Shown here in pieces: positions 226 through 14,268 of a DNA stretch of 29,381 bases. The DNA lies in the IMG/VR virus record IMGVR_UViG_3300025070_000159, positions 1 to 29,381 of that record; one strand, written 5' to 3'. The DNA comes from a virus. The notes below the pieces were generated by a model. The model made no database searches. It was not told the origin of the DNA and saw nothing but the letters and a program-made list of their open reading frames with translations. Numbering within the stretch: position 1 is the first letter of the stretch; every line of letters starts with the position of its first letter. The position numbers were made by a program, and so were the translations under genes.

Positions 226-2226
226 TTAGACCCTCGGCAGATTAACAGATGTCTCAATATCTGAGCGCAGCTTCTCCAAACGCAACTGACGCTCAAACTC
301 CAACTCTTGACGGCGCAAGTCTAACTCAGCAGCCATCTTCTCACGCTCAAACTGCAACTCAAGTTGCATCTTCTCGCGCTTGAGGGCTAAGTCTTGTTCG
401 GCCTTAGCCATCTCCATTTGCATTTCCGGATTCGGGCCTTGCTGTTGCGGTGGAGGCGGTGGAGCATTACGCGGGTCTTGGAAGAACTCGCTGGCATCTT
501 TGAAGCCAGAAAGCTCTGCAATCTTAGACAGCGTATTGCGATACTGGATGGGCGTAACAATCGGATTGTTTGGCCCCATTGTCGCCATGATTCCTTCTTG
601 CTTGGCAGCAATCTGGAACAGGGTAGCAAGCTGTTGCTCACGCTGACCGGTGCCAAGACCTACGTTAATCTGCACGTCGTACATATTGTCCCACTGACGC
701 GGATCCATTGTCACGAACTGATTACGCAGGCGAATGATTTTCTCTTTGTTTTGATACTTCGTAACCAAGTGCAGGATGCCACGGAACAAGGCTCGCACAC
801 CTGTCTCAGCAAACACACGGGCAATCATCTCAATCTTGCCTTGCGAAGCAGCTTGCATCGCAGCCACAGCAGTGGCGGTAGTGGACTGCAATGAGTCCGC
901 ATCCAAGCCCATTGACTGTTTGCTAATGCCGGTTCGCTGCTCCTTAACGCTGTCCATGTAGTTCAGCGCGGGGAAGACAGACGATGAAACATCTGGAACT
1001 TGCAGGGGTTGCACGGCACCGGCGGTGCGTGTGCGGATGATACCTGCCGGACGGTTGGTCAGCAGGTCATCGAGGTTTACCTGACCCTCAACCGCCACGA
1101 CGCGAGAGTTGTTAGTGTTGTAGATGTTGTCGAGCAACTGACGCATCAGGGTAGACTTGATAAGCTGCACGTCCATCACAAGCTCTGCAACCGAGCGACC
1201 AATCGCACGGTGCGGCATCAGGATGGGAGAAAGAATGGCAAATGGAAGCTGATCACACTCTTCATTTTCAAGAATGTGGTAGCCATTGCCTACTGTAAGA
1301 ACGCGACGGAACTCAGCCACCCCGTCACCATCATAGTCAGAACGAATATAACATTCCGTAACGAGAACATCTCGCATAGTCGGGTCAAGGCTGTCGTAAG
1401 GAGCGCCGCCTTCGAGGTCTTCAAATCGGCTGGTACGTTCTTCTGATGTTTCGACATCTGACACCCCTGCATATTTCTCAATCTCGTCTCGGCTGTGACC
1501 CATCTGCACAAGGTCGCTGACAGACATTGACGAGCGATGCGCTACAAAGTCTGCATCCTCAAGAGACTTGGCGCGGCTCGTAATCAAAAACTCTTCCGGC
1601 GGCACATTCTCAATGCAGACCTTGCCGTCTGTCTTGGTGCGCCTGACCTTGATGTCATAGAGAACCGGAGCCGGAATCATCATCCCGTCGGGGGTAATCA
1701 TGTCCCCACCGAGAGTACGCTCGTCTTGCTCGACAATCTCAACCTCTGGGTCGGCAAGGATGATGGTCAGTTCTTCATCATTGAGGTCGGCATATTCTTC
1801 TGTCTCAATATCTGTCTTCTCATCCCAGTAAAACTTCACAACACCAGTCTTCAGGATAAGCGCATCCTTAAACCAGTTGTGCATGATTTCAAAGCCACGG
1901 TTATCATTATTGATAACCCAGTTGCAGTAATCACTGGCTTGTTCAGCTACAGCTATATCCTCCGGCCCGTGAGGTGCGAAACGCACATACTCTTCAGACT
2001 GCGTAAAGATACGCATCAAGGACGGCATGACGTGTTCAATCGTGTCGGATACTTCAGTGCTTACAACCTGAGACCGGTCTGGCTGTTCATTTCCAAACGG
2101 TTCGCCCAAGTAATAGTCCATCGCGTCGATACGGTCTTGCGAGTACTCCGTATCGTAGTGACCTAGCGCTTGTTCAATCTCATTGCGAACAATGCCCTGA
2201 AACTCAATGTCGTCCATTTTAGCCAT
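226..2226 (-). CDS. portal protein
   Basis: The 666-aa product is a podovirus-type portal: twelve copies would form the ring at the capsid vertex through which DNA is packaged and ejected, docking TerL and then the tail. The size, the acidic N-terminal part with the DAMDYYLGEPFGNEQP segment, the central LPFAILSPILMPHRAIG segment and the following long helix region (VMDVQLIKSTLMRQLLDN) are typical of this class. After a PPPPPQQQ linker, residues from about 600 to 655 form a Glu/Lys/Gln/Arg-rich coiled coil, as expected for a long C-terminal barrel. It is the last complete gene of the TerL-to-portal block. The start ATG at 2226 lies two bases after the stop of the zinc-ribbon gene, so translation is probably coupled. 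Confidence 0.93.
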   Translation of the reverse strand: MAKMDDIEFQGIVRNEIEQALGHYDTEYSQDRIDAMDYYLGEPFGNEQPDRSQVVSTEVSDTIEHVMPSLMRIFTQSEEYVRFAPHGPEDIAVAEQASDYCNWVINNDNRGFEIMHNWFKDALILKTGVVKFYWDEKTDIETEEYADLNDEELTIILADPEVEIVEQDERTLGGDMITPDGMMIPAPVLYDIKVRRTKTDGKVCIENVPPEEFLITSRAKSLEDADFVAHRSSMSVSDLVQMGHSRDEIEKYAGVSDVETSEERTSRFEDLEGGAPYDSLDPTMRDVLVTECYIRSDYDGDGVAEFRRVLTVGNGYHILENEECDQLPFAILSPILMPHRAIGRSVAELVMDVQLIKSTLMRQLLDNIYNTNNSRVVAVEGQVNLDDLLTNRPAGIIRTRTAGAVQPLQVPDVSSSVFPALNYMDSVKEQRTGISKQSMGLDADSLQSTTATAVAAMQAASQGKIEMIARVFAETGVRALFRGILHLVTKYQNKEKIIRLRNQFVTMDPRQWDNMYDVQINVGLGTGQREQQLATLFQIAAKQEGIMATMGPNNPIVTPIQYRNTLSKIAELSGFKDASEFFQDPRNAPPPPPQQQGPNPEMQMEMAKAEQDLALKREKMQLELQFEREKMAAELDLRRQELEFERQLRLEKLRSDIETSVNLPRV

Positions 2227-2228
2227 AA

Positions 2229-2390
2229 CTATGCTTTCTTAGATACTTTAGCCTTTTTAGCCGTTTTAGCTACTTTAGCTACTTTGGGCTTTTCCTTAAC
2301 AACAGGAGCTTCACTTAGCGGCTTGCGACAGCCTTTGCAACGCTCTGTATAACCATTTGGATTGGGGTATCCGCAGTGTGGGCAAATCAT
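2229..2390 (-). CDS. small zinc-ribbon protein with Lys/Ala tail
   Basis: This 53-aa protein begins MICPHCGYPNP and has a second pair, CKGC, at residues 18-21, giving a CxxC-N12-CxxC zinc ribbon. The second half is a low-complexity basic tail of repeated KVAK/KTAKK units that resembles histone H1-type tails. The start ATG overlaps the upstream stop (ATGA at 2387-2390), so it is probably translated by coupling. It lies directly before the portal. A nucleic-acid-binding role is likely from composition; the exact role is unknown. Confidence 0.8.
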   Translation of the reverse strand: MICPHCGYPNPNGYTERCKGCRKPLSEAPVVKEKPKVAKVAKTAKKAKVSKKA

Positions 2391-2515
2391 TTCTCTGTCC
2401 TCTGTTTGCGTGGGCGACCACGTTTCTTAGGTGCAGCCTTCTTAGCTACCTTCTCCGCTTCCAATGCTGCTGCTTTCTCGGCAGCACGGTTACGCGTGTA
2501 AACAGTAACATACAT
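2387..2515 (-). CDS. 42-aa AT-hook protein
   Basis: The 42-aa product carries a canonical AT-hook, KKRGRPRK, at residues 30-37, preceded by an Ala/Glu/Lys helix-prone stretch (residues 11-28). AT-hooks bind the minor groove of AT-rich DNA. The start overlaps the upstream stop as TAATG (shared base 2515) and the stop overlaps the next start as ATGA, so it sits inside a tightly coupled string of tiny genes between TerL and portal. The reading frame is supported by these overlaps and the motif. Whether it acts in packaging, in genome condensation or on host DNA cannot be told from sequence. Confidence 0.78.
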   Translation of the reverse strand: MYVTVYTRNRAAEKAAALEAEKVAKKAAPKKRGRPRKQRTEK

Positions 2516-2691
2516 TATGACCGTTTCCTTGCCTTTTTCTTAGCAGTATTTGAAAGGTCGCCAAAGTGGTAAAGTTTCTTACTTGATTCAGTGTGTCGAG
2601 CGCCACTGTGCAGTTCGCCATTTGACATCTTGTGCATACCGCCTTTATGACGAGTGCCATCTCGGAAGTAATGAGCCATACCCTTAGCCAT
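2515..2691 (-). CDS. small basic phage protein (58 aa)
   Basis: MAKGMAHYFRDGTRHKGGMH begins a 58-aa, His/Lys/Arg-rich protein ending KKKARKRS. I recognise no named domain. Both ends overlap neighbouring genes by one base in TAATG junctions (2691 and 2515), which supports real translation. It is probably a nucleic-acid-associated or minor virion protein, by composition only. Confidence 0.72.
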   Translation of the reverse strand: MAKGMAHYFRDGTRHKGGMHKMSNGELHSGARHTESSKKLYHFGDLSNTAKKKARKRS

Positions 2692-2798
2692 TATGCCGTC
2701 CTCTTCTTCGTCGTCTTCTTGGCAACTTTTTTCTTTTTGCTATTTTTACTCTTAGGTCTTCCAACCTGCGAACCATAAGTTCCTTTTCCGTAAGGCAT
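2691..2798 (-). CDS. small Lys-rich phage protein (35 aa)
   Basis: The 35-aa product starts MPYGKGTYGSQVGRPKSK and ends in a run of Lys, Thr and Arg. I recall similar MPYGKGTYGS-type mini-proteins near portal and terminase genes of other phages; their function is not known. GRPK at residues 13-16 is an AT-hook-like core. The stop overlaps the next start in TAATG at 2691. Confidence 0.72.
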   Translation of the reverse strand: MPYGKGTYGSQVGRPKSKNSKKKKVAKKTTKKRTA

Positions 2799-2807
2799 AT
2801 CTAACTC

Positions 2808-3083
2808 CTACCACTTGACCTTATGTGACCAGTATTTTGCAGACAACTTACTTGTCGGCTTACCTTGTGCGTTATGACGAGCATAATAAGAACGCTTACG
2901 CGCCTTGTCTTTTGCAGTCTTTGGATTTTTGCCAGCACCACGCACACCTTGCTGACCAAAACGAATGAGGCGAATCTTGTCACCTTCTTTTGCTAGAACC
3001 GCATGGCTCTTCTTCGGATGCTTGGGGGTACGCTTCGGCTTGTTGTAACCAGCAAAACGCTCACCACGATAGACGATAGCCAT
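2808..3083 (-). CDS. conserved basic phage protein (91 aa)
   Basis: The 91-aa product is strongly basic and has the recognisable order GYNKPKRTP - SHAVLAKEG - IRLIRFGQQGV - RKRSYYARH - AKYWSHKVKW. This pattern recurs in a widespread phage family of unknown function, which I recall as a DUF without being sure of its number. The start ATG at 3083 shares its first base with the upstream stop (TAATG). It is the largest of the small genes between TerL and portal. A DNA- or virion-associated role is plausible. Confidence 0.85.
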   Translation of the reverse strand: MAIVYRGERFAGYNKPKRTPKHPKKSHAVLAKEGDKIRLIRFGQQGVRGAGKNPKTAKDKARKRSYYARHNAQGKPTSKLSAKYWSHKVKW

Positions 3084-3423: not shown

Positions 3424-4820
3424 TACACAACCCAATCCGATTTGCCATAGTTTATTGGTCGGTTCCATTTATGTGCGCTGCCGGACTTGGCGATGCTGGC
3501 TCTGCTGCCAAAGGTCAGGCAGAAGGAGTCTGCAAGGTCAGGCGAGTTTAGGCCACGACGTTTCATCTCGTCCTTGCCCTCAACTTTCAGCTTACCATTG
3601 GAGGTAAACTTAAAGCGCGGCTTAGACAGGTCGTCTATCAGTTCTTCTTGCAGAGGGATTGTGCAGTCACGAGACTCGAACCATTCTTTTGCAAGAAACC
3701 ACAACTCATCTCGCAGGCGTCCGTATCGGTCACCCATTGCGGGAGATTCAGCGACGTTGATACCGCGCACAGGTAAATCAAGTTCCATGAGACGGTCAAC
3801 AACGCCAGCACCCAGACCGATGCTGTCAACAAGTATCTCGGCGGGCCGGTCACCCCAGCGGGTCGTTTCGTATTCATTGAGGATAATCCCGCATATTTCC
3901 ATTAGGTCTTTGTTGCGCCACGTCTTGATCGGCTCGGTTACGACATTACCCTTACGTTTGCACAGAGCAGTTTTGTCCGTACCGAAACGTGCCACGTCAA
4001 GCCCCCAGACGACGGGAGTGGTTTCTGCTGCTTCCTGCTCTCGCGAGGATGCTGACTGCAAGAGGTGCAGTGGTATAACCACGTCGTCGTCGGCTTCAGG
4101 CCACTCTCCAAGAACACGAACTCTGTAGATGTTGCTGTCTTCGCCATACTTGAGCTTCATATCTTCCATGAAGGTTTCGCTTACCTGAGTACTATCAGAT
4201 GATGCGACCTTCATTGTAAAGAACCTATCGCGCATTTTATTGAAGGCTTCATAGAAGTAGCCGGACGTGCGCGTCGGGTTGCCGGTCATGACAGTCTTGG
4301 CACCCTCGGTGGACATCGCACCCTCTCCGACCTCGAAGATGATGTCGTCCACACCAGATGCCTCATCAATCAAGAACAGCATATTGGCTGAGTGGAAACC
4401 TTGCAGCGCCTCTGGAGTTTCACGACGTGCAGTTCGGGCGACAGCAAAGCTATCCTGTCCCGTAAGCTCAACTTTGTCAGACTTCACTTCAATTAGTTCT
4501 TTCAGGCCCTCTGGCATACGACGATGCCACTTTGCGACCTCTGCCCATAAAATGTCTGACAACTGACTAGCAGTGTTGGCAGTACATGCTATCCGACTGG
4601 GTGAGCGTGTCAATACCCACCAGAGTATCAACCATGAAAGAAATGCAGTCTTTCCGATACCGTGACCAGAGCGGATGGCTACGCGGTCATTGTCCCGCAC
4701 CGCATACAATGCTTTGCGCTGCCACTCTTCCGGACTGGCCTGCAGGATAGACTCAACGAATAACACGGGGTCAAGCGCAATCGCGGTGAGTAGCTCCTCT
4801 ACACTCTTTGGCTCTGACAT
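3423..4820 (-). CDS. terL: terminase large subunit (TerL)
   Basis: The 465-aa product is the ATPase/nuclease motor that packages phage DNA through the portal. Visible motifs are the Walker A loop SGHGIGKT (51-58), Walker B LFLIDE (148-153), a coupling-type MTGNP (178-182), and a RNase-H-fold nuclease with acidic residues in GLDVARFG (D275), ILVDSIG (D332) and SPDLADSF (D428/D431). The ATG at 4820 is preceded by AAGGAG seven bases upstream; an in-frame start further upstream (4892) lacks such a site. It leads the minus-strand packaging operon. Unusually, the putative small subunit is not adjacent: it lies about 850 bp upstream beyond an opposing gene. Confidence 0.95.
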   Translation of the reverse strand: MSEPKSVEELLTAIALDPVLFVESILQASPEEWQRKALYAVRDNDRVAIRSGHGIGKTAFLSWLILWWVLTRSPSRIACTANTASQLSDILWAEVAKWHRRMPEGLKELIEVKSDKVELTGQDSFAVARTARRETPEALQGFHSANMLFLIDEASGVDDIIFEVGEGAMSTEGAKTVMTGNPTRTSGYFYEAFNKMRDRFFTMKVASSDSTQVSETFMEDMKLKYGEDSNIYRVRVLGEWPEADDDVVIPLHLLQSASSREQEAAETTPVVWGLDVARFGTDKTALCKRKGNVVTEPIKTWRNKDLMEICGIILNEYETTRWGDRPAEILVDSIGLGAGVVDRLMELDLPVRGINVAESPAMGDRYGRLRDELWFLAKEWFESRDCTIPLQEELIDDLSKPRFKFTSNGKLKVEGKDEMKRRGLNSPDLADSFCLTFGSRASIAKSGSAHKWNRPINYGKSDWVV

Positions 4821-4918
4821 AGTCTCTCCTTGTTTATGGTGGGGCAGGCAACGAAAGGGAAAGGAAACCCGCCCCACCTTCGGGAGCGCCAAGGAGGAGT
4901 ACGCTCAACCGATCTCAT
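4799..4918 (-). CDS. possible 39-aa leader ORF before TerL
   Basis: An ATG at 4918 sits three bases after a strong GAGGAG site and opens a 39-aa frame (MRSVERTPPWRSRRWGGF...) that overlaps the TerL start by 22 bases. It could be a leader peptide or a small gene translationally coupled to TerL. Composition is not distinctive and no homolog is recognised, so it may be chance. Confidence 0.3.
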   Translation of the reverse strand: MRSVERTPPWRSRRWGGFPFPFVACPTINKERLCQSQRV

Positions 4919-4933
4919 TTTCTCCTCTTCTGT

Positions 4934-4964
4934 ATTTATGCCACAGTGTCGGGGCAGTCTGCAA
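4934..4964 (-). promoter_or_regulatory. possible minus-strand promoter for TerL operon
   Basis: On the minus strand TTGCAG (4964-4959) is followed after 18 bases by CATAAA (4940-4935), a weak sigma70-like match about 115 bases before the TerL start. A similar CTTGCAG occurs before the small-terminase gene near 6091-6096. Weak support. Confidence 0.3.
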
Positions 4965-4991
4965 GGGGGGTTATTTTTTTGAAAATATCTC

Positions 4992-5020
4992 TTGACTAAT
5001 GTTTGCCTAGCATCTATATT
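4992..5020 (+). promoter_or_regulatory. early promoter 1 with palindrome in spacer
   Basis: TTGACT (4992-4997) and TATATT (5015-5020) are separated by 17 bases. The spacer carries the imperfect inverted repeat ATGTT-N5-AGCAT (4999-5013), placed where a bound repressor would block polymerase. It belongs to a family of six promoters in this window. Confidence 0.85.
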
Positions 5021-5026
5021 AGCAGG

Positions 5027-5048
5027 GTAACAAAGGAAAGGGAGTTAC
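5027..5048 (+). promoter_or_regulatory. 5' leader hairpin with SD in loop (unit 1)
   Basis: GTAAC (5027-5031) pairs with GTTAC (5044-5048) around a 12-base loop AAAGGAAAGGGA containing the Shine-Dalgarno. The G at 5027 is seven bases after the -10 hexamer, so the stem would begin at the very 5' end of the mRNA. Confidence 0.7.
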
Positions 5049-5051
5049 GAA

Positions 5052-5399
5052 ATGGCAAACGGACGCACACGCGCAGTAAACTACAAACCACGCTATACAT
5101 CTATGGAGGCATACGACCTCCTGCCAGAGATCATCCGCGACGCACTCAAGGAGGGGCCGCAGCCGTGGGGTACAAACAGTATCCTGCGCCGGTTCAAAGC
5201 CTATTCAAAAAAGATGGGCGAGGACTGGGCAATCAAAAAAATATTGAGGTCTATCCGGTCTTGGCATGACATCGAAATTGAGGAGGGCAAGTGCTGGCGC
5301 AATCGCAGGGTCGGGCAGAAATGGGATGATACACCGCCATCACCTCACATGCAGGCAAACGCAACAATGCAGCAGGCTTACGGGCCGTATAAGGGTTAG
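5052..5399 (+). CDS. early phage protein, possibly DUF6525-like
   Basis: The 115-aa product is basic, with a central helical stretch (AYDLLPEIIRDALKEG, then RRFKAYSKKMG and IKKILRSIRSWHDIE) and a C-terminal His/Met/Gln-rich tail. The AYD-LP...PW... pattern recalls the DUF6525 family of alphaproteobacteria and their phages, but I cannot confirm this. It has its own promoter and hairpin leader and lies as a lone plus-strand gene between TerL and the putative small terminase, both on the minus strand. Its stop codon overlaps the first iteron-like repeat. A DNA-binding role is possible. Confidence 0.85.
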   Translation: MANGRTRAVNYKPRYTSMEAYDLLPEIIRDALKEGPQPWGTNSILRRFKAYSKKMGEDWAIKKILRSIRSWHDIEIEEGKCWRNRRVGQKWDDTPPSPHMQANATMQQAYGPYKG

Positions 5400-5521
5400 G
5401 GTGGACTGTCTGTCCGTTTAGGGTGGACTCTCTGCCCGCCTCCCCCCTGACACACTGCCCACCTAATATATAAGAAAGAATAAATCATCTAATATATCTT
5501 TAGGTGGACTCTCTGCCCACC
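5399..5521 (+). repeat. iteron-like cluster A (four repeats around AT-rich block)
   Basis: Four copies of a roughly 20-base element lie in one orientation: 5399-5415 (GGGTGGACTGTCTGTCC), 5421-5440 (GGGTGGACTCTCTGCCCGCC), 5448-5464 (TGACACACTGCCCACCT, diverged left half) and 5502-5521 (AGGTGGACTCTCTGCCCACC). The unit is itself an imperfect palindrome (GGTGG...CCACC). Copies three and four flank an AT-rich stretch (5463-5501) in which TAATATAT recurs. Three related copies lie inside the replication-initiator-like gene at 10082-10184. The layout resembles a replication origin or initiator-binding site. Confidence 0.75.
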
Positions 5522-5532
5522 CTCAATTAGAA

Positions 5533-5568
5533 CAAAAAAAATCAAAAACAGGCTAGGGTACCTTAACC
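5533..5568 (-). terminator. intrinsic terminator after small terminase
   Basis: Read on the minus strand, GGTTAAGG (5568-5561) pairs with CCCTAGCC (5558-5551) around a two-base TA turn, with one wobble and one mismatch, and is followed by a T-rich run (complement of 5533-5549). It would end transcripts from the small-terminase gene before they run antisense into the 5052-5399 gene. The very tight loop and the mismatch lower confidence. The rest of the gap to 5667 holds G-runs and C-runs that can pair (5618-5644) but no gene. Confidence 0.5.
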
Positions 5569-5666
5569 GTCTTGAAAGAGAGGGGGGGTGTTTTGGATGT
5601 GTGTACAACTAAACCTGCCCCCGTCCGCCTGAGAGAAGGGGGGGGTCTATAAACCTATTAGTATTA

Positions 5667-6032
5667 CTATTCTGCTGGAGAATCGTCTGGACTGACCTCT
5701 ATTACGTCAGCCTCGATGATGTCCGGCTCTTTCTGCTTGGATATAGCTAGTTGAACATTGCTTAGGGCAGCAGCGAGAGTATCTGATGGGCTTACCTCGA
5801 CGTTATGCTGGATATTCTTCGGCATCATGGTGGATAGCAGACGCATCGCCTCTAAGGGACGCTGAGATATCTCCTCAGACAAGGTCAGAGCCAACGCTTC
5901 CTTACCCCCGTGAAGCTCGATTGCCCTATCAAATGTGGATGCAAGCTGACTAGACAACCTCTGCCAGCCTCCTCCCTTGCCTCCATTTTTGTAAGCCGGA
6001 CGCCCTCTTTTTTCCTCAACCTTATTAGTCAT
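5667..6032 (-). CDS. putative terminase small subunit / DNA-binding protein
   Basis: The 121-aa product begins with a basic, Gly-rich segment containing an AT-hook-like KRGRPAY (8-14), followed by a helical core (AIELHGGKEALALTLSEEI...EAMRLLSTMMPKNI) and an acidic C-terminus (EADVIEVSPDDSPAE). Size, basic N-terminus, acidic tail and closeness to TerL on the same strand fit a small terminase that recognises the packaging site; this is inference, and another DNA-binding role is possible. AGGA lies about nine bases before the ATG. An opposing gene separates it from TerL, which is unusual. Confidence 0.6.
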   Translation of the reverse strand: MTNKVEEKRGRPAYKNGGKGGGWQRLSSQLASTFDRAIELHGGKEALALTLSEEISQRPLEAMRLLSTMMPKNIQHNVEVSPSDTLAAALSNVQLAISKQKEPDIIEADVIEVSPDDSPAE

Positions 6033-6100
6033 ACTTTATATCCTCAAACCCCTTGATTCCGTTACAACTTTACCCCACTAAAAAAAGTACTGCAAGCCCC

Positions 6101-6129
6101 TTGACTAATGCTAACTTAGTATGTATATT
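6101..6129 (+). promoter_or_regulatory. early promoter 2 with palindrome in spacer
   Basis: TTGACT (6101-6106), 17-base spacer, TATATT (6124-6129). Half-sites ATGCT (6108-6112) and AGTAT (6118-6122) lie in the spacer. It is back to back with a weak minus-strand TTGCAG (6096-6091) that could serve the small-terminase gene. Confidence 0.87.
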
Positions 6130-6135
6130 AATCAT

Positions 6136-6158
6136 GTAACAAAGAGAAGGGGAGTTAC
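6136..6158 (+). promoter_or_regulatory. 5' leader hairpin with SD in loop (unit 2)
   Basis: GTAAC (6136-6140) pairs with GTTAC (6154-6158), and flanking T/A extends the stem to TGTAAC/GTTACA. The 13-base loop is AAAGAGAAGGGGA. The first stem base is at the predicted +1. Confidence 0.7.
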
Positions 6159-6160
6159 AA

Positions 6161-6397
6161 ATGAAAAGCTACAAGATCGAATTGATTGACTACACCGAGG
6201 GCGACTTGGAGACCGGCGTCAAAGTCCGCGTCAATGGCACCAAGTTCCCCAGAGAGCTAGGCCAGAGCTACATCACAAAGGATGAACAGCAGGCCATCAA
6301 GTGGGCCGTCGCAGAATATGATGGAAAGTATCTGTCCCGTGGCGGCGTGATATATGACAGCCGCGAGGACTATCTCAAGGCGATGGATATGGACTAA
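6161..6397 (+). CDS. early phage protein (78 aa), unknown function
   Basis: MKSYKIELIDYTEGDLETG starts a 78-aa acidic, mixed alpha/beta protein of unknown function. It forms a self-contained unit: promoter 2 and its hairpin leader precede it, and an intrinsic terminator follows three codons' distance after the stop. Such single-gene cassettes are typical of early, host-directed phage genes that can be gained or lost independently. No motif is recognised. Confidence 0.85.
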   Translation: MKSYKIELIDYTEGDLETGVKVRVNGTKFPRELGQSYITKDEQQAIKWAVAEYDGKYLSRGGVIYDSREDYLKAMDMD

Positions 6398-6402
6398 AAA
6401 AT

Positions 6403-6437
6403 GCGGGGTAACTTTCTTGGTTATCCCGTGCTTTTTT
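6403..6437 (+). terminator. intrinsic terminator
   Basis: GCGGGGTAAC (6403-6412) pairs with GTTATCCCGTGC (6420-6431) with wobbles or a one-base bulge around a 7-base loop and is followed directly by TTTTTT (6432-6437). It ends unit 2 just before promoter 3 begins at 6441. Confidence 0.85.
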
Positions 6438-6440
6438 CTC

Positions 6441-6469
6441 TTGACTAATGCTAGTCTAGTATGTATTAT
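6441..6469 (+). promoter_or_regulatory. early promoter 3 with palindrome in spacer
   Basis: TTGACT (6441-6446), 17-base spacer, TATTAT (6464-6469). Half-sites ATGCT (6448-6452) and AGTAT (6458-6462). It starts four bases after the preceding terminator T-run. Confidence 0.88.
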
Positions 6470-6475
6470 AATAGT

Positions 6476-6496
6476 GTAACAAGGAAAGGGATTTAC
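6476..6496 (+). promoter_or_regulatory. 5' leader hairpin with SD in loop (unit 3, weaker)
   Basis: GTAA (6476-6479) pairs with TTAC (6493-6496); an outer T-A pair (6475/6497) is possible and the loop-side C-T pair (6480/6492) is mismatched. The loop holds AAGGAAAGGG. It is the weakest of the five leaders. Confidence 0.55.
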
Positions 6497-6498
6497 AA

Positions 6499-6927
6499 AT
6501 GATGAGCATTCACCAAGCAAACCTCGGCGCACTGAGCGGCGGCATCAAACCAAACTGCGGCCCGACAGCAGTCGCAAACCTGATGAACTGGAAAACCAGC
6601 GCCGTCATGGGCATCTTCCGCAAGGAGTTCGACTACGGCCCACGCTGGCAGGGTCGGAGCCGCCTCAGCCAATGCGTCAAGGTACTCAAGTGGCAGTGCA
6701 TGATGCCCAAGGCTATGGGCAATGAACGCGGCAGACTGCCTCGCAAAATGTCGCTCAAGAACTTTGTCGAGATGCACTGCAAGCAGCAGGGCCGGTATTT
6801 AATCCGCGTCGGCGGTCACATCGTCGCCGTTATCGACCAAGTCGTCTATGACCAGCACGAGATTGCACCCATCGCCGAGAGCAAGTGCGCTCGCAAAATG
6901 GTCAGCCACGCATTCGAGATCAAATAG
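6499..6927 (+). CDS. papain-like-fold (C39/transglutaminase-like) candidate
   Basis: The 142-aa product has the hallmarks of a small papain-like cysteine protein: NCGPTAVANLM (19-29) supplies a helix-start Cys20, GRYLIRVGGHIVAVID (98-113) supplies His107 on a beta strand, and D113 or D118 could complete a triad. CGPTA...-GH-x-VAVI is the order seen in C39-type peptidases and related phage proteins. A host-directed protease or an amide-bond hydrolase/transferase is possible; activity is inference. It heads unit 3 and is followed 13 bases later by an HTH regulator. ATG ATG at the start leaves a one-codon ambiguity. Confidence 0.8.
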   Translation: MMSIHQANLGALSGGIKPNCGPTAVANLMNWKTSAVMGIFRKEFDYGPRWQGRSRLSQCVKVLKWQCMMPKAMGNERGRLPRKMSLKNFVEMHCKQQGRYLIRVGGHIVAVIDQVVYDQHEIAPIAESKCARKMVSHAFEIK

Positions 6928-6940
6928 GAGGATACAAACA

Positions 6941-7309
6941 ATGACACCCGAAAGAGTGAAAACAATTCGCCACGCCCTGCGGCGCAGTGACGGACGCAAA
7001 CCAACGCAAAGGCAGGTTTCTAAATTCCTGAGAATGGGCGAGGTTTCCGTGCCGCGTTATGAGTCGGGAGCGCAAATCCCCACCGAGTCTCATGCCTTGC
7101 TTTTGGAAATGTTGACCGACAGGCGCACCGTTGATCGCATAGCGAGAGCGAATGAGCGCGAGGGTATCTTTTCAGATATTGAGCTTCCTCAAAGGTGCTG
7201 GCGCTGTCAGGGGCGTAACACCAAGCTTGAAATGGTTGAAGAGCAGCGCCTTGTCATTTGCCAAGATTGCGATGAGGCTTGGTATGCGAACAGAAAAAGG
7301 CAATGGTGA
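6941..7309 (+). CDS. HTH regulator with C-terminal zinc ribbon
   Basis: The 122-aa product pairs an N-terminal XRE-like helix-turn-helix (about residues 22-60, PTQRQVSKFLRMGEVSVPRY then ESGAQ) with a C-terminal zinc ribbon (C86WRC89 and C107QDC110). It resembles the DNA-binding half of MqsA-type antitoxins joined, in unusual order, to a zinc domain at the other end. AGGAGG lies ten bases before the ATG and overlaps the stop of the preceding gene. It is a candidate repressor of the palindrome-bearing early promoters, including its own. No toxin partner of the MqsR type is visible. Confidence 0.85.
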   Translation: MTPERVKTIRHALRRSDGRKPTQRQVSKFLRMGEVSVPRYESGAQIPTESHALLLEMLTDRRTVDRIARANEREGIFSDIELPQRCWRCQGRNTKLEMVEEQRLVICQDCDEAWYANRKRQW

Positions 7310-7320
7310 AACACTATTGC
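7300..7320 (+). other. hairpin over the stop codon of the HTH gene
   Basis: GCAATGGTG (7300-7308) pairs with CACTATTGC (7312-7320), nine pairs including one wobble, around an AAA loop. It covers the TGA stop at 7307-7309. No T-run follows, so it may protect a 3' end or mark RNA processing rather than terminate. Confidence 0.45.
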
Positions 7321-7381
7321 AGTGCCGGTTCCGCCCAGTATCGAGCGCAGAAAAAAATGATAAAAGAAATAAATAAAGTGC

Positions 7382-7410
7382 TTGACTAATGCTAGGTGAG
7401 TATGTATTAT
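7382..7410 (+). promoter_or_regulatory. early promoter 4 with palindrome in spacer
   Basis: TTGACT (7382-7387), 17-base spacer, TATTAT (7405-7410). Half-sites ATGCT (7389-7393) and AGTAT (7399-7403). Confidence 0.88.
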
Positions 7411-7416
7411 AATGGT

Positions 7417-7440
7417 GTAACAAAGAGAGAAGGGAGTTAC
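7417..7440 (+). promoter_or_regulatory. 5' leader hairpin with SD in loop (unit 4)
   Basis: GTAAC (7417-7421) pairs with GTTAC (7436-7440), extendable to TGTAAC/GTTACA. The 14-base loop AAAGAGAGAAGGGA carries the Shine-Dalgarno. The first stem base is the predicted +1. Confidence 0.7.
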
Positions 7441-7442
7441 AG

Positions 7443-7817
7443 ATGACAAACCAAATCAAATGGAAGCGGATTTTCTCAGGCCGGTATGTCAGTCAATGCG
7501 CTCGGTATGAGCTTGAGTTGATCGAGGAGTACGGCAGGTTCTCCGAGTGGCACATCACGGAGCGTGGCGGCTATGGCGACTTTGTCGGCACATTCGATCC
7601 GGAGTATACCATGCGAGACGCAAAGCAGGTCTGCGAGTGGCACAACCAAAACAACCCGCTGACCGATGAAGAACGCACCGAGATGATCGAAGGCCAGATT
7701 GAAACCGCCAAGAGTGTCTTGGAGTTTTTCAAGAGAAACGACGAGCAGGACTCCATCAAGATTGTCAAAGCCATAATGGACATCGACAAATCGGCACTAA
7801 AAAGAATTGCAGCATAA
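7443..7817 (+). CDS. early phage protein (124 aa), unknown function
   Basis: The N-terminal half looks like a small beta-rich domain (WKRIFSGRYVS, YELELIEEYG, WHITERGGYGDFVGTF), ending in an EYTMRDAKQVCEWHNQ helix. The C-terminal half (76-124) is an amphipathic, charged helical region. No family is recognised. It is expressed alone from promoter 4 with a hairpin leader; promoter 5 starts nine bases after its stop. Confidence 0.86.
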   Translation: MTNQIKWKRIFSGRYVSQCARYELELIEEYGRFSEWHITERGGYGDFVGTFDPEYTMRDAKQVCEWHNQNNPLTDEERTEMIEGQIETAKSVLEFFKRNDEQDSIKIVKAIMDIDKSALKRIAA

Positions 7818-7825
7818 AAAAACAC

Positions 7826-7854
7826 TTGACTAATGCTGGACAAGCATCTATATT
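7826..7854 (+). promoter_or_regulatory. early promoter 5 with perfect palindrome in spacer
   Basis: TTGACT (7826-7831), 17-base spacer, TATATT (7849-7854). Half-sites ATGCT (7833-7837) and AGCAT (7843-7847) are a perfect inverted repeat with a five-base gap, the best form of the operator candidate. Confidence 0.88.
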
Positions 7855-7860
7855 ATTAGT

Positions 7861-7883
7861 GTAACAAAAGGAAAGGGAGTTAC
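7861..7883 (+). promoter_or_regulatory. 5' leader hairpin with SD in loop (unit 5)
   Basis: GTAAC (7861-7865) pairs with GTTAC (7879-7883), extendable to TGTAAC/GTTACA. The 13-base loop AAAAGGAAAGGGA carries the Shine-Dalgarno. The first stem base is the predicted +1. Confidence 0.7.
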
Positions 7884-7885
7884 AA

Positions 7886-8212
7886 ATGGAAAACATCAGC
7901 CACCCAGAATTTCTCATCCGTCGCGGCAGCGTGGCACCGGTCAAGTTATCACCGGCCCGACGCAAGCGTCGCAAGAAGTTCAAGCTCGTGCCGCCAAGTC
8001 ATCTTGGCAAGACATGGGCCGCTCGCTTCAAGAGTGCAGTTTATGTTCGGATGCACTTCAATAATGAGCATTCACAACTGAGCGGTGTGCATTGCATGTG
8101 GTCATTTGTGGGCCGGAAGTGGGTTCACCTGTCAACAGCGCGAGGCACCGTACGGTTCAAAATGAAACGCGCAGACTATGAGCGCATGAAACCAGAGGAG
8201 CTTTCACGATGA
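7886..8212 (+). CDS. basic early phage protein (108 aa)
   Basis: The 108-aa product is strongly basic, with an Arg/Lys cluster at 23-34 (SPARRKRRKKFK) and a predicted beta-rich part around WSFVGRKWVHLSTARG. No named family is recognised. It leads a polycistronic unit from promoter 5; its stop overlaps the next start (ATGATG at 8209-8214). A nucleic-acid-binding role is possible from composition. Confidence 0.83.
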   Translation: MENISHPEFLIRRGSVAPVKLSPARRKRRKKFKLVPPSHLGKTWAARFKSAVYVRMHFNNEHSQLSGVHCMWSFVGRKWVHLSTARGTVRFKMKRADYERMKPEELSR

Positions 8213-13884: not shown

Positions 13885-13972
13885 CAGCATTGGCTGGGTC
13901 AACCTCCGGCGCGATAAAGCAAGAGAGGCGCTCAGGGAGATATTGAAGAAGATCGATAAAGACCTTGACTAA
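13754..13972 (+). CDS. overlapping small protein (72 aa), start uncertain
   Basis: This frame overlaps the last 131 bases of the DnaA-domain gene and then continues alone to 13972. Its later part (SKEEWRERAIFAETKLSSI, then LRRDKAREALREILKKID) looks like a real helical protein, so a start inside the DnaA-domain gene is likely; ATG 13754 has only a weak Shine-Dalgarno. It could also be a displaced continuation. The stop TAA overlaps the -35 element of the next promoter. Confidence 0.5.
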   Translation: MKSRRPLGVTSREESLRPLSKEEWRERAIFAETKLSSIACIPNDSIGWVNLRRDKAREALREILKKIDKDLD

Positions 13973-13993
13973 TGCTTGTCTAGCAAGTAGTAT
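13965..13993 (+). promoter_or_regulatory. promoter 6, operator family without hairpin leader
   Basis: TTGACT (13965-13970), 17-base spacer, TAGTAT (13988-13993). Half-sites ATGCT (13972-13976) and AGCAA (13982-13986, one mismatch). The leader GTTTTATCAATCAGGAAGGG lacks the GTAAC/GTTAC stem of the other units. Confidence 0.8.
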
Positions 13994-14019
13994 GTTTTAT
14001 CAATCAGGAAGGGAACCAG

Positions 14020-14268
14020 ATGACCATAAAAATTATGCCAACACCAGCAAGCAAACCGGACGCTATACTCAATCGGCTCGTAGACGCTTTCTTTGAAGCC
14101 GAGGGGGAGCTTGAGATAAGCCTAGGCCTTGCGCCAGCCTCTTACAACCCCACCACATATGAGCTTAAAGCCTATGAAGATCCGGTAAATGACGAGGTGT
14201 ACGAAAAGTTCCAAAAAGTATATGGAGATTTATGCGATCTCGCTAAGGAGGTGGAGAGCCTAAAATGA
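14020..14268 (+). CDS. small acidic phage protein (82 aa)
   Basis: The 82-aa product contains DAILNRLVDAFFEAEGELEI and ends in a helical VYGDLCDLAKEVESLK. No family is recognised. AGGAAGGGA precedes the ATG, downstream of promoter 6. The stop TGA overlaps the next ATG at 14265. Confidence 0.8.
   Translation: MTIKIMPTPASKPDAILNRLVDAFFEAEGELEISLGLAPASYNPTTYELKAYEDPVNDEVYEKFQKVYGDLCDLAKEVESLK

Follow-up and report, generated by a model that had tools for sequence, protein, structure and literature searches.

Five early units with a common promoter and leader

The window analysed here is a stretch of 29,381 nucleotides (nt) of DNA (IMG/VR record IMGVR_UViG_3300025070_000159, positions 1 to 29,381), a contig of a marine tailed phage (record G000). 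Five early units on its + strand each open with a promoter and a short leader in which the pentamers GTAAC and GTTAC bracket most of the Shine-Dalgarno (SD) sequence, and the subject of this report is the hairpin that these pentamers could form at the 5' end of the mRNA. The five promoters lie between 4992 and 7854, are of the same type (TTGACTAATG, 7 nt, AGnATn, then TATATT or TATTAT) and are near-identical; in all of them TTGACT is followed by 17 nt, TATATT or TATTAT, a 6-nt discriminator and GTAAC. They are probably sigma70-type promoters, and this assignment is part of the explanation that we consider best. Promoter and leader together are referred to below as a cassette.

4992..5020, + strand: unit 1 promoter, TTGACT-17 nt-TATATT, with inverted repeat ATGTTTGCCTAGCAT between the boxes
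5027..5048, + strand: unit 1 leader, GTAAC AAAGGAAAGGGA GTTAC, 5 base pairs (bp), loop of 12 nt, predicted transcription start (+1) at 5027; gene start at 5052 (DUF6525)
6101..6129, + strand: unit 2 promoter with inverted repeat ATGCTAACTTAGTAT
6136..6158, + strand: unit 2 leader, GTAAC AAAGAGAAGGGGA GTTAC, loop of 13 nt, extended to 6 bp by an outer U-A; gene start at 6161
6441..6469, + strand: unit 3 promoter with inverted repeat ATGCTAGTCTAGTAT
6476..6496, + strand: unit 3 leader, GTAAC AAGGAAAGGGA TTTAC, loop of 11 nt, loop-side C-G pair lost; gene start at 6499
7382..7410, + strand: unit 4 promoter with inverted repeat ATGCTAGGTGAGTAT
7417..7440, + strand: unit 4 leader, GTAAC AAAGAGAGAAGGGA GTTAC, loop of 14 nt; gene start at 7443
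7826..7854, + strand: unit 5 promoter with inverted repeat ATGCTGGACAAGCAT
7861..7883, + strand: unit 5 leader, GTAAC AAAAGGAAAGGGA GTTAC, loop of 13 nt; gene start at 7886

As an initial sequence-only reading of the window had described, the two pentamers enclose a loop of 11-14 nt made of purines throughout (12, 13, 11, 14 and 13 nt in units 1-5). The arms are exact in units 1, 2, 4 and 5, and unit 3, in which TTTAC replaces GTTAC at 6476-6496, keeps the outer pairs and loses the loop-side one. The outer U-A forms a sixth pair in units 2-5. Because GTAAC begins 6 nt after the -10 box in every unit, the standard geometric expectation makes its G the predicted +1 in all five, in agreement with that reading, and would put the stem at the predicted mRNA 5' end or only a few nt away from it. 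The same reading had placed the SD in the loop. This holds for most of it, but the 3' arm opens with the final G of GGAG, which leaves the SD partly outside the loop. The 3' arm ends 2-3 nt before the ATG in the five window genes, and the SD-to-ATG spacer spans 2-5 nt over all 14 copies considered below. The exact pattern GTAAC-N9..20-GTTAC occurs four times in the window, always on the + strand and within the units, compared with a mean of 0.11 in dinucleotide shuffles.

Conservation of the leader in related phages

To find relatives of the window, IMG/VR was searched with its terminase and for matches to the promoter and hairpin patterns. The wider group is present among IMG/VR contigs, and the nearest named record in the terminase comparison was Phage C72C1 with 58% identity. 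Among the many contigs of the wider group, only the sister contigs L012 (five copies) and L093 (four copies) carried the cassette; L099 is the same contig as L012. The copy set thus consisted of 14 leaders (five from the window, w1-w5, five from L012 and four from L093) with 12 distinct sequences. The hairpin-pattern scan of IMG/VR returned 47 stretches, of which only those in L093 and L099 were real, the others being chance matches in unrelated sequence. Scanning 61 sources with a structure model of the leader added no copy to the 14, and searches for relatives of the unit 2 and unit 4 proteins and of the helix-turn-helix (HTH)-like protein described below revealed no additional genomes with the cassette. 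Comparison of the DNA against phage records gave no match, and Rfam, applied at the gathering score to 4800-8200, gave only sub-threshold chance matches, none of which covered a leader hairpin.

Across the 14 copies, pairwise differences per site amounted to 0.029 in the arms and 0.026 in the -35 box, and to 0.188 in the loop, 0.326 in the discriminator and 0.538 in codons 2-4. The loop length varied from 11 to 14 nt while the arms stayed fixed. The chance that two such conserved pentamers would be complementary is about 0.1%, and when the leader was shuffled, a stem starting at its first two bases reached at least 5 bp in 0.46% and at least 6 bp in 0.05% of cases. The conservation of the arms together with their complementarity is the main evidence for the predicted hairpin.

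The leader was also retained ahead of different genes. The unit 1 cassette of L012 precedes a gene encoding MQYNDTQY..., whereas the window counterpart encodes MANGRTRA..., and the unit 3 and unit 5 cassettes of L012 lead to MTKGIKRE... and MTRKIDF..., respectively. Retention despite a different downstream gene was thus seen in L012 units 1, 3 and 5, and also in L093. Judged from these arrangements, the hairpin is a feature of the cassette rather than of a particular gene. In L093 (4110-3950, - strand), compared with window positions 7320-7440 and 7800-7890, the upstream flank of unit 4 is joined, at a switch point inside CTTGACTAATGCT, to the unit 5 operator and leader, and the unit 4 gene is deleted between the repeated cassettes. 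This junction and the gene changes behind the cassettes indicate that exchange takes place at the cassettes, or at least did so in the past.

Operator-like repeat and candidate regulator

Between the -35 and -10 boxes of all five units lies an inverted repeat of fixed spacing, ATGCTAnnnTAGCAT, with 1-2 mismatches. It was also found in a sixth promoter of the same type (13965-14022, ahead of the gene at 14020), which has the operator-like repeat and lacks the leader hairpin; promoter and hairpin are therefore separable.

ATGCTAnnnTAGCAT sites: 4999-5013, 6108-6122, 6448-6462, 7389-7403, 7833-7847 and 13972-13986

In the window, ATGCTAnnnTAGCAT gave 7 matches against 1.16 expected, and the repeat is likely to be a repressor operator that defines a regulon. 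At 6941-7309, within the operon of unit 3, a small protein is encoded with a weak match to HTH_31 and a zinc-ribbon-like C-terminal stretch; its homologue in the sister contig L013 is 86% identical. This HTH-like protein is a candidate regulator of the cassettes.

Folding and energetics

For the isolated stem, the calculated energy was -1.1 to -2.2 kcal/mol (37 °C) or about -3.1 to -4.6 kcal/mol (20 °C), and with the neighbouring bases on each side about -2.7 to -3.8 and -5.0 to -6.5 kcal/mol, respectively; with the outer pair, the isolated hairpin came to about -3 and -5.5 kcal/mol at these two temperatures. The broken w3 is excepted from these values. When the leaders were folded at 37 °C together with the first 30 nt of their genes, the stem had a probability of 0.54-0.99 in 11 of the 14 copies, and co-transcriptional folding would favour the 5' hairpin. 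Pairing of the SD with the anti-SD, computed with 16S 3'-end sequences that we took as given, amounted to -6.5 to -12.7 kcal/mol at 4-8 nt to the AUG, so that the stem is far weaker and the ribosome should win over the hairpin. An action of the hairpin as a repressor of translation is thus unlikely. As the 3' arm is the SD-to-AUG spacer and the last G of the SD is paired, initiation must open the stem.

Other gene starts and repeats in the phage group

SD-in-loop hairpins at two other genes were considered and rejected. At the late gene 'MDEG...' (L018, L023, L030, L044 and others) the hairpin resembled a case of covariation, and other homologues break it. At the exonuclease gene, a hairpin occurs in L016, L066, L072 and L051 and is absent in the window, L012, L093, L027, L028 and L068. 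The exonuclease leaders of the former four contigs, AACGAAAGGGACTTCGT-ATG and CACAAAAGGAGAGATTTGTG, form SD-in-loop hairpins at their predicted 5' ends.

The sister contig L013 has a repeated start-associated element unlike the window leader. At 955-2971 (- strand), eight gene starts have a common GGACGTTTAAACATG, with the 8 bp palindrome GTTTAAAC between the SD and the ATG, and 13 GTTTAAAC sites occur in 13.3 kb. At 4970-4900 (- strand), an early promoter (TATAAT AAAGAG) is followed by TGTAGGG AATGAC CCCTACA, a strong hairpin that is 5'-terminal at the predicted +1 and has the SD outside it. In the window, the gap after the unit 1 gene (5396-5520) contains three direct repeats (TTAGGGTGGACTGTCTGTCCG and variants), and the corresponding place in L013 (5925-5780, - strand) contains repeats of another sequence (GGTATAGTCAGGATGACTATAGGG); both sets look iteron-like.

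Comparison with known systems

The leader resembles those of the E. coli ompA and papA mRNAs, whose 5' structures act as stabilisers, in having a predicted 5'-terminal stem within a short leader ahead of a strong SD, and protection through pairing of the 5' end would act alike. The ompA and papA stems are more stable, and their SD lies downstream in single-stranded RNA. In the window leaders, in contrast, the loop holds the greater part of the SD, and the SD-to-AUG spacer doubles as the 3' arm.

The sequence-only reading knew of no named element of this form, a statement that has to be qualified in view of the Start Associated Sequence (SAS) of cluster K mycobacteriophages. As described (PMC3203893), SAS is a 13 bp sequence of fixed length, 5'-GGGATAGGAGCCC, of which 11-19 copies lie at start codons. 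The genes concerned are non-structural, many in number and from various families; SAS contains an SD, and its conserved outer bases have no pairing partner in 16S rRNA. In the passages used here its authors do not call it a hairpin; about half of the copies have 17 bp inverted repeats upstream, and for those extended repeats the authors doubted RNA hairpins (PMC3203893). We infer that SAS itself may form a small SD-in-loop hairpin, GGG ATAGGAG CCC. The window leader likewise is a repeated, SD-containing element a few bp before the start codons of five different genes. GGGATAGGAGCCC was not found in the five units, whose leaders read GTAAC...GTTAC without sequence similarity to SAS. The window element is close to SAS in anatomy and not a member by sequence.

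With the hairpins bound by CsrA/RsmA, the window leaders share a GGA in the loop that overlaps the SD, whereas their loop is longer and variable, GGA is not fixed in all copies, and the present system is not known to include a CsrA. The ANGGA of a CsrA/RsmA site was absent from the loops of w2 (GGGGA) and L012 unit 4 (GGGGG). The split ribosome-binding sites of T4 genes 25 and 38 are another case of phage genes with a hairpin where translation is initiated. In T4 it is located between the SD and the AUG and shortens an overlong spacing, while the window leaders have a normal linear spacing to begin with (4-8 nt) and a hairpin that encloses the SD.

Proposed role of the leader hairpin

Our preferred reading, to which we give a probability of about 0.5, is that the leaders form a weak 5'-terminal hairpin that presents most of the SD, shields the 5' end and gives way to the 30S subunit, all within a mobile cassette. 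Each of the five paralogous cassettes would combine a short leader with a promoter of the sigma70 type that has a palindromic operator-like site between its -35 and -10 boxes, and would drive one small accessory early gene or two. The transcript would have the G of GTAAC as its first base and immediately form a 5'-terminal hairpin of 5-6 bp, the all-purine loop of which would offer most of the SD unstructured. The paired 5' end would be a poor substrate for 5'-end-dependent decay of the RppH/RNase E type until ribosomes load. On arrival of the 30S subunit, its anti-SD would bind the exposed loop, and the stem, being weak, would open, because the 3' arm is the SD-to-AUG spacer. The 5' protection would be modest. 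In E. coli, 5' stem-loops stabilise mRNA, and an added 5' hairpin stabilises the bla mRNA and impedes RppH (PMC3997798); by analogy, the window hairpin may delay decay until ribosome loading. What the analysis itself established are the sequence and its geometry, the conservation of the arms, the persistence of the leader when genes are swapped, and the energies; the start of transcription, folding in the cell, protection of the 5' end and exposure of the SD are inferred.

Several observations weigh against this reading. At 37 °C with the coding sequence included, w3, w5 and the w5 orthologue L093_4015 favour other folds, and w4 refolds differently at 20 °C and below. The covariation analysis that had been suggested for the stem yielded no compensatory changes, no pair being changed on both sides among the 12 distinct sequences, so the leaders do not form a covarying structured RNA family. 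Only two arm changes were seen. In L012 unit 5 an A has become G, and the pair persists as G-U; in window unit 3 a T replaces G and one pair is broken, the stem of the L093 copy ahead of the orthologous gene being intact. In unit 1 the outer U-A is replaced by G.G. The arms are kept over the 14 copies, but without covariation and with one window unit broken. By our own count, orthologous copies differ about two times in the arms and about two in the loops, and since the two change about equally there, the slow rate of the arms rests on paralogous comparisons. Short-range selection on the arms, as far as the alignments tell, lacks support from orthologous copies. Because the copies are paralogous, the five units are not independent observations and represent roughly one event, and the odds given above for complementarity have to be discounted, since patterns were first hunted across 29 kb. 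At other gene starts of the related contigs, SD-in-loop hairpins were not in excess. A stem of at least 5 bp was found at 42 of 816 distinct SD-bearing starts, against 31.4 (SD 4.6) expected from swapping upstream parts between genes, and as nine of the 42 are copies of the window-type cassette, about 33 remain against about 31. Homologous genes elsewhere, namely the late 'MDEG...' gene and the exonuclease gene, keep no hairpin.

In the main rival reading, the leader would be a primary-sequence word, comprising the initially transcribed region, the SD and the spacer, that was copied with the promoter and kept alike by duplication and exchange at the cassette ends, the complementarity of GTAAC and GTTAC being incidental or of minor effect. 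We hold this to be possible, if less than probable. The copies are plainly paralogous, covariation is absent, L093 joins the unit 4 flank to the unit 5 leader by its switch in CTTGACTAATGCT, the start word GGACGTTTAAACATG of L013 is repeated at eight gene starts without a bracketing hairpin, and about 4% of the gene starts in the group have a chance SD-in-loop stem of at least 5 bp. However, if homogenisation were the only cause, loop and spacer should vary no more than the arms, and both differ; moreover, the GTTAC arm is as conserved as the -35 box although it is neither promoter, SD nor start codon.

That an RNA-binding protein or nuclease shuts off the five early mRNAs together, in the way that CsrA/RsmA acts at GGA loops, that T4 gp43 acts on the leader of its own mRNA or that T4 RegB cuts GGAG, appears unlikely. 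The same hairpin over the ribosome-binding sites of five early genes would suit such a translational operator. Most loops contain ANGGA, GTAACAAGGA resembles the CsrA SELEX consensus RUACARGGAUGU (PMC7652899), and an unpaired GGA with the fourth G paired is the geometry reported to allow RegB cleavage without S1 (PMC3014915). The recognition base is nevertheless not fixed, as the SD of L012 unit 4 is GGGGG, without GGAG, and w2 (GGGGA) has no ANGGA. The loops, moreover, are of 11-14 nt, compared with six in most CsrA ligands, and among the small products of the unit region that were scanned no RNA-binding or nuclease family was found, most of them matching no family at all; a RusA-like resolvase is encoded further downstream. 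It is very improbable that GTAAC and GTTAC are instead the half-sites of a DNA repressor just downstream of +1. An inverted repeat does lie beside the promoter, and the phage encodes the HTH-like protein with its weak HTH_31 match (6941-7309), but a spacing of 11-14 bp would rotate the half-sites by up to about 100 degrees and a better operator of fixed spacing, ATGCTAnnnTAGCAT, is already present between -35 and -10. As the arms are kept at variable distance on both sides, a hairpin fits better than a dimeric DNA site.

If the hairpin does not work as proposed, the window offers a case of repeated cassettes that mimic a structured RNA family without covariation. If it does, 5'-end protection and ribosome presentation would be packed in about 22 nt that travel with a promoter, a compact and directly testable part that might also account for the conserved outer bases of the unexplained SAS repeats of mycobacteriophages. 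A broader proposal, which we regard as doubtful, is that operator, promoter and SD-presenting 5' hairpin form a mobile unit through which any accessory gene inserted after it would gain repressor control, 5'-end protection and quick ribosome loading, in a class that includes the mycobacteriophage SAS.

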